A stretch of DNA of 64,000 bases. It comes from Helianthus annuus (lineage: Eukaryota > Streptophyta > Magnoliopsida > Asterales > Asteraceae). Below the pieces are notes generated by a model that did not search any database, was not told where the DNA came from, and saw only the letters and a program-made list of their open reading frames with translations. A program made the translations under genes and the position numbers. The stretch covers positions 120,461,127 to 120,525,126 of the forward strand of contig NC_035435.2 in the NCBI RefSeq assembly GCF_002127325.2, written 5' to 3'. Of this stretch, positions 37,795-57,246 are shown one piece after another (positions within the stretch are counted from its first letter, which is position 1; the number at the start of each line of letters is the position of its first letter).

Positions 37795-37836
37795 TATATA
37801 TATATATATATATATATATATATATATATATATATA

Positions 37837-38266
37837 GGGGAGGGTTATCTTGAGAACGCTAAATATTGCGAGAACCGTGAGAACGAACGAAAAAACCAAT
37901 CAAAACCAATTTTTTAATACAAACCTCATTGTAATTAAGATACAACATCAAAAAAAGAATTTACGACATCAAATAATTCATTTCTCTTTTCAAAATCACA
38001 CTTTTTAGATTTTTTACACATGTGTAAATATAATAGATTTACACATGTGTCAATGGCAAACTTACACACGTATAAGTTTTCTTTATTTACGAATTCACGT
38101 AAATTTAAACGTGTAAATTAAATTTCTAACATTGTATTCGAATAATAATAATAATAAGTGTAGAAATTTTTTTTAAATTTGAATTGTTTTTGACCAAGTT
38201 CTGGTGATTTTTTCATTTATTCTCACGGTTCTCACAATATTTAGCGTTCTTATTTAAACCCTCCCC
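37837..38266. mobile_element. TA-flanked element A1 (430 bp)
   Basis: Starts GGGGAGGGTTATCTTGAGAA and ends in the imperfect complement (TTATTTAAACCCTCCCC). The subterminal part reads GCGAGAACCGTGAGAAC on the left and GTTCTCACAATATTTAGCG on the right. A related copy, A2, is at 46440. Inside are ACACATGTGTAAA words and no frame of note. (TA)n tracts flank both sides. Confidence 0.85.
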
Positions 38267-38366
38267 TATATACATATATATATACATATATATATACACA
38301 CATATATATACACATATATATACATATATATATACACATATATACATATATATACATATATATATA

Positions 38367-38762
38367 GGGGACCGCTAAAATGAAAACCACCTACAGTTGT
38401 AAGAACCATGAGAACTTTTTGATCTGTGGCGAGTTGGACGAAATTTTTTTTCATAAACGTAGATGCGTGTATTATAAACACATTTGTAAAAAAAAATTCA
38501 AAAAAAAATATCGTGTGTGTAGTTTTGAGCACCACAAGTTTGTGTTTACAGGTACCGTAAATTTTAAAATTTACGGTACCCGTAAACACAAACTTGTGGT
38601 GCTCAAAACTACACACACGACATTTTTTTTAAATTTTTTTTACAAATGTGTTTATAATACACGCATCTACGTTTATGAAAAAAATTTTGGTCCAACTCGC
38701 CCCGTACAGTGTAGATCTCATGGTTCTTACAACTGGAGGTGGTTTTCATTTTAGCGGTCCCC
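38367..38762. mobile_element. TA-flanked element B1, near-perfect 396-bp palindrome
   Basis: The left half from GGGGACCGCTAAAATG pairs with the right half ending CATTTTAGCGGTCCCC. The symmetry centre is between 38565 and 38566 in GGTACCGTAAATTTTAAAAT. Only isolated differences and single-base offsets break the match. Both strands thus give nearly identical short frames, which are not genes. The ends match those of the larger element B2 (47814-49677). Confidence 0.9.
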
Positions 38763-38775
38763 TATATATATATAT

Positions 38776-39336
38776 GGAGAAGATCATGCGAGAACCACCT
38801 CTTATTGCGAGAACCGCGAGAACCAATGTGAACACAACAAAAAATGCCTAAAATTAGCTAAAAATCACACAATTTTTTTAATATTTTTTTATATAAAAAT
38901 CGCTACTTTTTGAAGCCAAAAAAAAAAAAATTAAAAATCTTAATTTTTTTGACCACTAAAAGTAGCGATTTGAGCATAAAAAATATTAAAAAAAAATTTA
39001 GATTTTTTTTTTATTTTTTTAGATTTTTTGGGGGTTTAGTTTTTAGCATTTTAGCTTTGGGGGGGGGGGGGGATGGGGGGAGGGGGGGTTTAGGTTTTTG
39101 GGGGGTGGGGGAGGGGGTTTAGGTTTTTTTTTTTTTTTTTTTTTTGGGGGGGGGGTTAGTTTTTTTTTAGGTTTTTGGGGGGTTTTAGTTTTTAACATTT
39201 AGCTTGGGGGGGGGTTTAGGTTTTTTTTTTGGGGGGGATTTAGGTTTTTTTTTTGGTTTTTTAAGCTATTTTAGGTTGTGTTCACATTGGTTCTCGCGGT
39301 TCTCACAATAAATGGAGTTCTCGCATGAGCCCCTCC
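38776..39336. mobile_element. TA-flanked element C1 (561 bp) with poly(G) core
   Basis: Left end GGAGAAGATCATGCGAGAACC, right end GGTTCTCGCGGTTCTCACAA to GAGCCCCTCC. Inside are an inverted pair ATCGCTACTTTT / AAAAGTAGCGAT and long G runs at 39060-39235. The element C2 at 47254-47791 is the same family in reverse orientation. Confidence 0.85.
39060..39235 (+). repeat. Poly(G)/poly(T) tract inside C1
   Basis: Many runs of four or more G separated by TTTAGGTTTTT. Such sequence could form G-quadruplexes. The complement occurs in C2 (47340-47500). Confidence 0.8.
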
Positions 39337-39386
39337 ATATATATATATATATATATATATATATATATATATATATATATATATAA

Positions 39387-54330: not shown

Positions 54331-55799
54331 CGGGTTCGGGAGAAAACGCTCAAAAGTGTGAGAACGGTGAGAACGCATCCTGGCCTAACACGTGTCCCGC
54401 GGCATAGAGAAGGGCGGAGGGGCTTTTTTGTCTTTTCATTCTTCTTTTATTTTCACAACGCGGTATAATATTTTATGGCGTCTAAGTTTTTTTTGGCGTT
54501 AATTGTATTTATTAAACTTTTTGGCGTTTAATTAATTGTTTTTGTGTCATATATATATATATATTTTTTTGGCGTTATATTGTTTTCTGGTTAACTTTTT
54601 GGCGTTTGTGGCGTTTTGTATAATAATTAACCAAGAGTAATTAATGTTTGCATAAAATTAAAATAAGTCCAATTTTTCTTTTTGGCGTTTATTGAATTTT
54701 TTGGCGTTTTAACACCCTTTTACAAGGTGCTTTGCCAGCAGCTGATTTCCCAATTTTCATTCTACTAGCGTTTTGGTGTTTGTAGTTTTTGGCGTTTTAT
54801 ATAGTAATGTATTTTATTTATAGAGAATTAGATAACCATACAACATATAACTTGATATCTATTCAATATAAAATGAAAACAAAAATAATTAAAAAATGGT
54901 AATCTAATTTTTCTTTCCAATCTTCAATGTCATCAGCCTCTTCCATCTTGAATTTGTTTTTTGGTGTTTTGAACCTTTTTTGAATAATTTAGCTAGATGC
55001 CAACTTTCCTTCATAAACCCCGTCTTTTTAGAAGAAGCTGTTTAGTGGCATCCCGTTTTTTGGTGTGATATTCTTGTTTGGTGGCATGTCATTGAAGATC
55101 AACTCTTGCTTGATGCTATTTGTAATAATGGAGTCCAAAATAGCATTTTATTCTTGTGTGGAACCCTTTCTTCCATGTCTATAATCATCAAGAACAAAGC
55201 TCACATGATGGCATATCACTGTCATCAGTCTCTTTTTCTTGAATATTTGTCCATCTCATTCAGCAAAATATTATTGAGTTAACCCCCTCAGAAAAAGGAT
55301 CCATTTCAGTGAAAGCTTTGCCATCTGTGGCGTTTTAAAGGGAGTGGTTTCTAGAGGATATGGCGTTTTTTTGTGTTTTTCTGGGGTGATTAATTTCATT
55401 GTGTATAGAACCCTCTCTTATAGGAGTTTTTTGGCGCGTAGTTTAGGCGGGACTTTTTATTGTAATAATTGATAGTAAGAAAGTAACTGTCTTTTCAGTT
55501 ACTGTTTTTGTATTTACTGTGTTGATCAGCTTTTATCAGTTTTATAGGTTATAGACGTCCCATCTTCTAAGTTTGGCGTTTTTTTAAATGGCCTTATGCA
55601 GACCAACATGACAAAATACAATAACGGAGTAAATAAAATATTAAGCAGGAAAAATATTTTTTTTTTTATTTTTGGCGTTTTGTTAGGGTTAACTATTTTT
55701 AGTACTATTTTTGCGTTTTGCTAATAAAGATAGAAATATATCATTTAATTATCTTAAAAAAAGAAGATTACATAGAAGGAAAAAAAAGAGGAAAAAAAA

Positions 55800-56387
55800 T
55801 TAAAATCCTTTGTCAGAAGGTACTTTATCTGAATAGTATCCATTAGTTGTGTCATCTTCTTCCTCCTCGGAGTCTTCATTTTGATCTTCATCCATGTCAT
55901 CACATTCACCTTCATCAGCTTCTTGTTCCTGAAGATTCTGAAGCCTCCACCTGAACATGTCTTGCATTAACTCCAATTTTGAGTCTATTTCTGGGTTGGT
56001 ACAAGTGGCGTTATGCAATTCTTCCATGAAACTCAGTCGCTGCTTTGTCATGATGTTCTCTAGCTAGTAGACTTCCTGCTCTCCGCTGTCGTATGTAACC
56101 GTCACCATGTCTGTTTCATCATCAAAACGCCATGATGTCATGACAGGGTCTGGCTTCACATTTCCTTTGATTGGTCCAAATTTGCTGGTTAATGCTTTCA
56201 TAAGCATATGCGTTTCATGGCATTCATTGTCTAGAGCAATGCCAATGGATAAGATTTGCCTTTGTATGTCTTCTTCCATCTTCAGAATAGCCCTGACCGT
56301 CTTAACATACACCCTCCTTCTGTTGTCAAAATGGAGGACGTATCGCCTGATTCCCAGAGTGTATCTCCACGAAACGATTGTTGCCAT
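55800..56387 (-). pseudogene. Hypothetical protein in H, one in-frame TAG
   Basis: Two minus-strand frames, 56387-56064 (107 residues) and 56051-55800 (83), are in the same phase, separated by one TAG and four codons. The first begins MATIVSWRYTLGIRRYVLHF and includes RRRVYVKTVRAILKMEEDIQ, then FGPIKGNVKPDP and a DMVTVTYDSGEQE strand. The second has a helix-rich part (KLELMQDMFRWRLQNLQEQ) and a strongly acidic end (DMDEDQNEDSEEEEDD). I recognise no family. The coding region is free of the GGCGTTT words that fill the element, and a TATA-like box lies about 100 bp upstream. It may be a real element-encoded gene with a nonsense mutation or two reading units. Confidence 0.55.
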
Positions 56388-56486
56388 TTTTGGCGTTTTG
56401 TTTAGGTTGGCGTTTTTTATTAACGATTTTTTTTTTGCAGAAAATGGATAGATTGAAGTGATTATGGAAGCTATGTTTTACCTTTG

Positions 56487-56496
56487 TTTATATAAT
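56487..56496 (-). promoter_or_regulatory. TATA-like box upstream of the H ORF
   Basis: On the minus strand CATTATATAAAC lies about 100 bp before the ATG at 56387, a normal promoter distance in plants. Confidence 0.45.
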
Positions 56497-56855
56497 GATG
56501 TTTTGGCGCGTAATTTAGGAGGGAATTTCTTCTAATAAATGTTAATAACTGAAATTCAGTTATTTGTGTTGTTTCATCTTCCTGTAATATTCAACGCGTT
56601 TTATTAGTAATTTTTGGCGTTTTGTTTTTAATGGCGTTTTATTTTTTTGTATGGCGTTTTATCATTTGATGGCGTTTTGAATATGAGGGATAAAAGACCC
56701 TTTTACCCTTAATGAAGCGCGTCCCACATAATAATATTGATGTTATTTACGAAAACGCCACCGCACAATCTAGTCCATGGATTGTTTTGATCGGACGATC
56801 CATAAGCGTTTTCACCGTTCTCAGACTTTCTACCGTTTTCTCTAAATCCCGACCC

Positions 56856-56905
56856 TATATATATATATATATATATATATATATATATATATATATATAT
56901 ATATA
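56856..56905. repeat. (TA)25 microsatellite
   Basis: Between element H and the partial element I. Confidence 0.95.
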
Positions 56906-57246
56906 ACCATCTTGAGTTGTGAGAACCGTTGGAACCAATATAAGGCATTCATCAAAGATGTTTTGATGGATGAGATTAAAAGACAATAAAGTATGGTAAT
57001 GATTATGCTTTAGTTAATGAAATTTTATTATTAGTGAGATAAGGACAATTTGGACTTTTACTATATCCATTAATTAATGTCATCTCATTTGTATTTTATT
57101 TTTAGTAAGATTTTGTTTTTAGTGTCATTAATGATTCTGATTTAATTAATGTCATTTAATTATTTTGTACTACTGTATTATCTTTTTTTTAGCTCCTTTT
57201 CAGTATGATAATCAACAACACATTTGAACTCAATTTTCAAAGTATG
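56906..57246. mobile_element. Partial TA-flanked element I
   Basis: After the TA tract the sequence ACCATCTTGAGTTGTGAGAACCGTTGGAACC resembles the terminal region of families A-C (GAGAACCG...GAACC). No matching right end is found before the SIRE LTR at 57247, so the element was probably cut by that insertion. The remainder is AT-rich and non-coding. Confidence 0.4.

Follow-up and report, generated by a model that had tools for sequence, protein, structure and literature searches.

A 19-kb string of (TA)n-joined inverted-repeat elements in sunflower, very probably Mutator-like elements of the microsatellite-targeted kind

Small transposable elements that sit in microsatellites have been described in several plants, and the statements made here on published systems follow the available sections of the cited papers. 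In guayule, rice, sorghum and citrus, the SaTar (microsatellite-targeted) arrays consist of small elements derived from Mutator-like elements (MULEs), which lie in microsatellites and form modular arrays (PMC5907723). The same paper describes the rice Micron elements as small (TA)n elements that are mobilised as non-autonomous MULEs, and it is by this description that they are likened to the elements treated here. Families in carrot are a further case of microsatellite-inserting elements, and the paper on them states that it is unclear how such miniature inverted-repeat transposable elements (MITEs) find TA (PMC8227079). The array described below was found in sunflower (Helianthus annuus), in a window of 64 kb, meaning the whole stretch of DNA analysed (C3:120461127-120525126; the genome has 3,010,006,569 bases in 334 contigs). 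It comprises thirteen consecutive elements with terminal inverted repeats (TIRs) and one nested element, labelled as in Table 1. We regard it as very probable that these are non-autonomous MULEs of the SaTar kind and that such strings were built by independent insertions directed to TA. The kind of array is already known; the sunflower array is a further, well supported example.

Guayule and sunflower belong to the same tribe, Heliantheae, and the guayule SaTars (Valdes Franco et al. 2018, PMC5907723) resemble the sunflower array in having many small TIR families, (TA)n flanks and modular arrays. Some guayule members also show 10-bp duplications outside the microsatellites, as does the sunflower family of element E4. 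Unlike the guayule SaTars, the sunflower elements stand thirteen in a row over 19 kb, most of their families share an end with three boxes, and their duplications tend to end in TA. Furthermore, no nesting is reported in the available text among more than 300 guayule clusters, whereas the sunflower array holds one nested intruder of another family, E5. MuTAnT of Medicago (PMC4486113) is likewise Mutator-like, with GGGG ends, (TA)n flanks and duplications outside TA. However, MuTAnT is a single family of which an autonomous copy is known, and its duplications measure 9 bp, compared with 10 bp for E4; for the sunflower elements no autonomous copy came to light. The Ac-mMITEs of pineapple (PMC8449440) are TIR elements in (TA)n that form non-nested clusters via adjacent insertion; they belong to two families, against ten end types in the sunflower array.

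The row reads E1, E2, E3, E4, E7, E8, E9, E10, E11, E12, E13, E14, E15, with E5 inside E4, and neighbouring elements are separated by (TA)n, the longest tract of which measures 106 bp. A first-pass annotation of this DNA had proposed thirteen TIR elements in a row with nothing but TA between them. The row and the inverted repeats hold, but E5 is nested, several of the TA tracts are impure, and the junction of E14 and E15 is a mixed one of TA and GA, the only such junction in the array. The annotation had also let the array run from 37795 to 57246. Its start and its length of about 19 kb are right, but the row ends at 56905 and is followed only by the clipped end of one further element at 56906. 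In the next 3 kb, no partner end for this fragment scored above shuffles; the best candidate for a closing end was rejected, with a score of 11 against a shuffled maximum of 13.

Each element was scored for TIRs against 200 shuffles of its own sequence. The local scores of whole elements lie between 16 and 101.5, compared with shuffled maxima of 10.5–14.5. The halves of E4 score 6 and 11.5 singly, which is below the pass level, as expected of an element split by E5. The elements span 0.28–5.4 kb and fall into ten end types (E1/E10, E2/E13, E3/E12, E4, E5, E7, E8, E9/E11, E14 and E15), in agreement with the sizes and the at least ten types given in the first annotation. A comparison of the array elements with the window outside the array gave no match at E 1e-4. 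The idea that so much diversity in one place is unusual was not borne out. Comparable strings occur in the same genome at C1:252-256, 280-292 and 298-300 kb, and arrays of this kind have been published (PMC5907723, PMC8449440).

Most families have ends of one layout. The 22 ends of E1–E4, E7, E8, E10 and E12–E15 can be aligned to reveal GGG(G)..., behind which RRAAC-like boxes stand near positions 17, 35 and 44. All three boxes are present in 17 of the 22 ends and two or more in all 22. In 200 trials with shuffled ends, the number that carried all three averaged 0.1 of 22 and never exceeded 2. A different type of end, marked by a TACAAA box, is found on E9 and E11, and E5 has a third type. An end profile, from which the flanks were excluded, was run on the window, on 10 kb beside it and on 200 kb of C1. 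Its threshold, 12.2 bits, lies above the best match in one Markov-shuffled control, which reached 11.7. Fifteen ends were found in the 200 kb of C1, 12 of them directly on TA. Of the other three, one adjoins a TG/TA run, one a mixed AT run and one ordinary sequence.

The E4 family was then followed genome-wide. With at most one mismatch, its 23-base subterminal pattern gave 2,253 and 2,249 matches on the two strands, and the reversed control gave 0. The exact end pattern was matched 1,653 + 1,704 times, and with (TA)5 in front of it 1,082 + 1,102 times (reversed control, 0). In total, 2,184 of the 3,357 exact ends (65%) adjoin perfect (TA)5, and the other 1,173 do not.

Eighty copies of the family were fetched as short regions (numbers with L) in three samples. 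The first 20 were the first plus/minus pairs among 100 matches listed for the 23-base pattern, and the second 20 were the next unfetched pairs among 100 matches listed for the exact end pattern. The last 40 comprise every place listed between C2 and early C5 for the 199 ends of the TAACGCG subfamily, whose first copies are about 97% identical. In the first sample, TA-rich tracts stand on both sides of 16/20 copies, several of them impure (e.g., L041, L045, L046 and L047). One copy (L040) has TA on one side only, and three others lie in ordinary sequence and are flanked by 10-bp duplications, with a mismatch in one case. The second sample has 12/20 copies in TA, some of it impure; the other 8/20 stand outside pure TA, and their 10-bp duplications are perfect. 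For the third sample, pure TA was seen on both sides of 22/40 copies, with one mismatch in three more (L079, L081 and L095), and duplications outside pure TA in seven (four 10/10, two 9/10 and one of 9 bp); six had no right end that could be found, and two had unlike flanks (L085 and L097). An earlier impression from five of six C1 copies, that the young 428-bp E4 subfamily lies mainly outside TA, was dropped when 40 further copies with exact ends proved to be mostly in TA.

Pooling the samples gave 18 duplications outside pure TA in 80 copies; 17 are of 10 bp (three with one mismatch) and one is of 9 bp. Tested against their own base composition, these duplications favour particular ends. The outermost base is T in 28/36 half-sites (p 6e-6), and TA begins 18/36 half-sites (p 3e-6). 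TA stands at one or both ends in 14/18 duplications and at both in 4/18. The observations support insertion of E4-family elements with a target duplication and with a strong preference for TA. As 10-bp sites with TA ends are preferred, and (TA)n fits such a site in every register, we infer that the targeting of TA follows from this preference. The first-pass annotation had named copies in non-TA sequence as evidence against insertion into (TA)n. Such copies do exist, among the 1,173 E4 ends and the 18 duplications above and throughout the E5 sample below.

Two further observations concern the copies of this family. A second size class of 848–891 bp, about 90–96% alike and with a G-rich interior, is represented by L054–L056, L060, L061, L066 and L070. 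On C6, the TAACGCG subfamily has four ends on one and the same strand (5254388, 5254769, 5271725 and 5272106); they form two pairs, each 381 bp apart, with 17 kb between the pairs, and are probably a local duplication.

E5 belongs to a Mutator-like family without TA targeting and is an intruder in the array. The end pattern of its family, with at most two mismatches, was matched 760 + 743 times in the genome (control, 0). Twenty exact-match copies were taken in list order, the window copy excluded, and none (0/20) lies in a TA tract. Both ends were present in 16 copies, with exact duplications of 9 bp in eight and of 10 bp in three, eight-of-nine matches in two and none in three. The duplications of 10 bp in the E4 family and of 9–10 bp in the E5 family are of the MULE type (8–11 bp). 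Because its family is not found in TA in these 20 copies, E5 is no exception to the non-nesting of SaTars, and the idea that it proves nesting among SaTar elements was dropped.

The site of E5 can be compared with 18 intact E4 copies, namely the first 20 minus L041 and L046, which carry unrelated inner inserts without TA flanks; other DNA does, therefore, interrupt E4 copies. The longest alternating TA run at this site measures 3–9 bp across the 18 copies, compared, in the window, with 22 bp to the left of E5 and a short one to its right. The tract beside E5 therefore probably grew after the insertion, and from this one site slippage would appear to be the process. The first annotation had reasoned that every insertion into (TA)n makes new targets. 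The TA preference of E4, its duplications and the ends found beside its copies agree with this, but the E5 site indicates that a tract need not pre-exist at its full length.

It could thus be argued that the TA tracts result from insertion more than they attract it: elements would enter short sites rich in AT, and the flanks duplicated there would expand later. Besides the growth of the tract at E5, whose family does not choose TA, this would fit the maize TAFTA elements, for which empty sites of 6–8 bp TA that expand are cited in PMC5907723, and the mean of nine TA repeats at Medicago empty sites (PMC4486113). However, the highly identical TAACGCG subfamily is still mostly in TA, strings of neighbours require TA that was there before, and short-TA duplications such as that of L069 have not expanded. 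As the main origin of the TA tracts, later expansion seems unlikely, although not negligible.

Several points weigh against TA-directed insertion of MULEs as the source of the array. The 10-bp rule was examined in the E4 family only, which limits its scope. The flanks of impure TA tracts are often unlike (L035, L045, L047 and L050), for which slippage or mutation must account. The positions of the three boxes were picked after the alignment had been viewed, and some of the families behind the 22 ends are related. Finally, a Pfam search with 14 frames of the array, five of them in E8, gave nothing above the curated cut-off and no transposase domain.

The lack of matching 10-mers at those four impure tracts is what would be expected from the model put forward for the guayule SaTars (PMC5907723), in which homologous recombination brings circular intermediates with TA filler into microsatellites that are already there. 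The copy at C1:252203, which adjoins a mixed TG/TA run, points the same way. Against this stand the 18 E4-family copies with duplications outside pure TA, 17 of them of the 10-bp length, and the fact that a preference for TA-ended sites already predicts (TA)n. In addition, L066 lies in an impure tract of which 9/10 bases, including the interruption, are kept on both sides. As a single mechanism suffices, recombination of circles is considered distinctly improbable.

The neighbours of E4 copies were also compared, for the first sample of 20. An end scoring at least 6 bits by the profile lies outside the element in 11/16 TA copies, compared with 0/3 duplication copies, and at 10 bits the number is 9/16; no score above 5.5 bits was seen in 20 shuffled replicates. 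By eye, with the E9/E11 type counted, a neighbouring end was seen in 14/16 TA copies. Head-to-head junctions of a single kind, GGGGNNGGTTC, across TA occur 47 times genome-wide (control, 0). Many different end types occur among the neighbours, and arrays have therefore very probably been built up insertion by insertion and not by the copying of a block. That the array is one ancient block copied around the genome, as the presence of E1/E10 and E3/E12 twice each might suggest, is scarcely credible, since these pairs are only 79–80% identical, E3/E12 is inverted, and the 16 other TA-borne E4 copies have such varied neighbours.

Independent insertion into TA can be pictured as follows. Presumably, the shared ends serve as recognition sites in trans for related MULE transposases. 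Insertion of an E4-family element would duplicate 10 bp of the target, with sites that end in TA preferred, as seen in the copies outside TA. Since (TA)n offers a preferred site in every register, it would be struck most often, in keeping with the TA flanks observed. The duplicated flanks may then lengthen, probably via slippage, and the lengthened flanks would become targets for the next element. The varied neighbours are in line with this last step, in which the order of insertion is conjectural.

Some of the larger elements hold clusters of short motifs. AACATGTGTTA occurs on both strands, 24 times in E8 and eight times in E14, and its count in the window outside the array is zero; a related motif, ACACATGTGT, occurs in E1, E10 and E4. 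The top 8-mer counts per 2 kb are 18 in E8, 12 in E13, 10 in E14 and 12 in E15. Among 97 background windows of 2 kb, top counts ran up to 14 and were 10 or more in 5/97. Only E8 exceeds all of these windows, while E13, E14 and E15 stay within the background maximum, and motif clusters were dropped as a general oddity of the array. A relative of E13 at C1:255.3 kb also has the E13 motif, repeated. At 42558–42884 of the window, E8 has a coding-looking frame of 108 amino acids, basic and with an acidic run, and without a Pfam match above the cut-off. By impression, the E8 frame may be like the Ulp1-type genes of some MULEs. In E15, two minus-strand frames (56064–56477 and 55800–56063) adjoin and resemble one interrupted coding region, again without a Pfam match above the cut-off. 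A TA-flanked stretch of 6 kb elsewhere (C1:282469-288440, L028) contains a cellulose-synthase exon (PF03552, 5.5e-54) and is perhaps a gene-capturing MULE.

The motif clusters of the larger elements recall the VANDAL MULEs of Arabidopsis, in which VANC target motifs are element-specific and lie in non-coding parts (PMC5735166, PMC10398659). However, VANDALs have degenerate TIRs and a VANC gene, and no VANC-like gene was identified in the sunflower array. A wider view may be offered tentatively, although we doubt it on balance. One transposase clade that reads the three-box end might run most of the ten families, and the preference for TA-ended 10-bp sites might seed flanks that slip into longer microsatellites, on which any family with such ends would then insert best. 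Arrays would then feed themselves, and a considerable share of the genome's TA microsatellites would owe their origin to the elements. In the large members, anti-silencing proteins that the elements encode may in addition bind the motif clusters, as they do in VANDAL.

The features of the array are collected in Table 1. Just left of it, at 34990–37348 of the window, two frames resemble by eye a LINE-type (long interspersed nuclear element) reverse transcriptase and tail. Just right of it, at 58246–61565, two frames on the minus strand overlap; they are 493 and 628 amino acids long. Long frames at 3621–7000 were judged by eye to resemble the polyprotein of a long terminal repeat retrotransposon.

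Table 1. Elements and tracts of the array, in window positions; TIR scores are given against the maximum of shuffled sequences.
Feature	Position	Strand	Description	Basis
Whole array	37795..56905	.	13 consecutive elements and 1 nested, TA tracts between	
E1	37837..38266	+	430 bp, E10 family	TIR 37 vs 14.5; 80% identity to E10
E2	38367..38762	+	396 bp, near-complete palindrome (self-complementary, 91% across 398 columns), ends in common with E13	TIR 88 vs 12.5
E3	38776..39336	+	561 bp, E12 family	TIR 46 vs 13.5; 79% identity to E12, inverted
E4	39386..40065	+	split by E5 into 39386–39492 and 39854–40065	alignment to 18 intact same-genome copies
TA tract	39493..39514	+	22 bp, left of E5	3–9 bp TA in 18 intact E4 copies
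E5	39515..39844	+	330 bp, nested in E4	TIR 101.5 vs 14
E7	40081..40575	+	495 bp	TIR 22 vs 14.5
E8	40682..46058	+	5.4 kb, 24 copies of AACATGTGTTA, both strands	
E9	46089..46370	+	282 bp, ends related to E11	TIR 16 vs 10.5
E10	46440..46861	+	422 bp, E1 family	TIR 27 vs 14
E11	46893..47225	+	333 bp	TIR 27 vs 11
E12	47256..47791	-	536 bp, E3-family member in inverse orientation	TIR 47 vs 13
E13	47814..49677	+	1.9 kb, E2-type ends, AACGTAAA cluster	TIR 28 vs 14.5
E14	49698..54268	+	4.6 kb, inner inverted arms of ~0.8 kb (92%), 8 copies of AACATGTGTTA	
(GA)14	54301..54328	+	immediately after (TA)16, E14/E15 junction; sole mixed TA/GA junction	
E15	54329..56855	+	2.5 kb, 21 copies of GGCGTT	TIR 24.5 vs 10.5, GA run included in scoring
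Clipped end	56906..56940	+	one further element	12.5 bits, end profile

Among the papers listed in a literature search, none dealt with such arrays in sunflower, and the words microsatellite, MULE and inverted repeat are absent from the available text of one sunflower paper (PMC4085609). In the available sections of the literature on such arrays, the three-box layout, the preference for TA-ended duplications and an array of this length were not met.

A preference for 10-bp sites that end in TA, with (TA)n as its limiting case, is a simple alternative to the recombination model of PMC5907723, and it can be tested in any plant that has such elements. The E5 site suggests that the length of a tract can follow from insertion. 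An array of 19 kb in a crop genome is, moreover, convenient for dating successive insertions by the comparison of cultivars.

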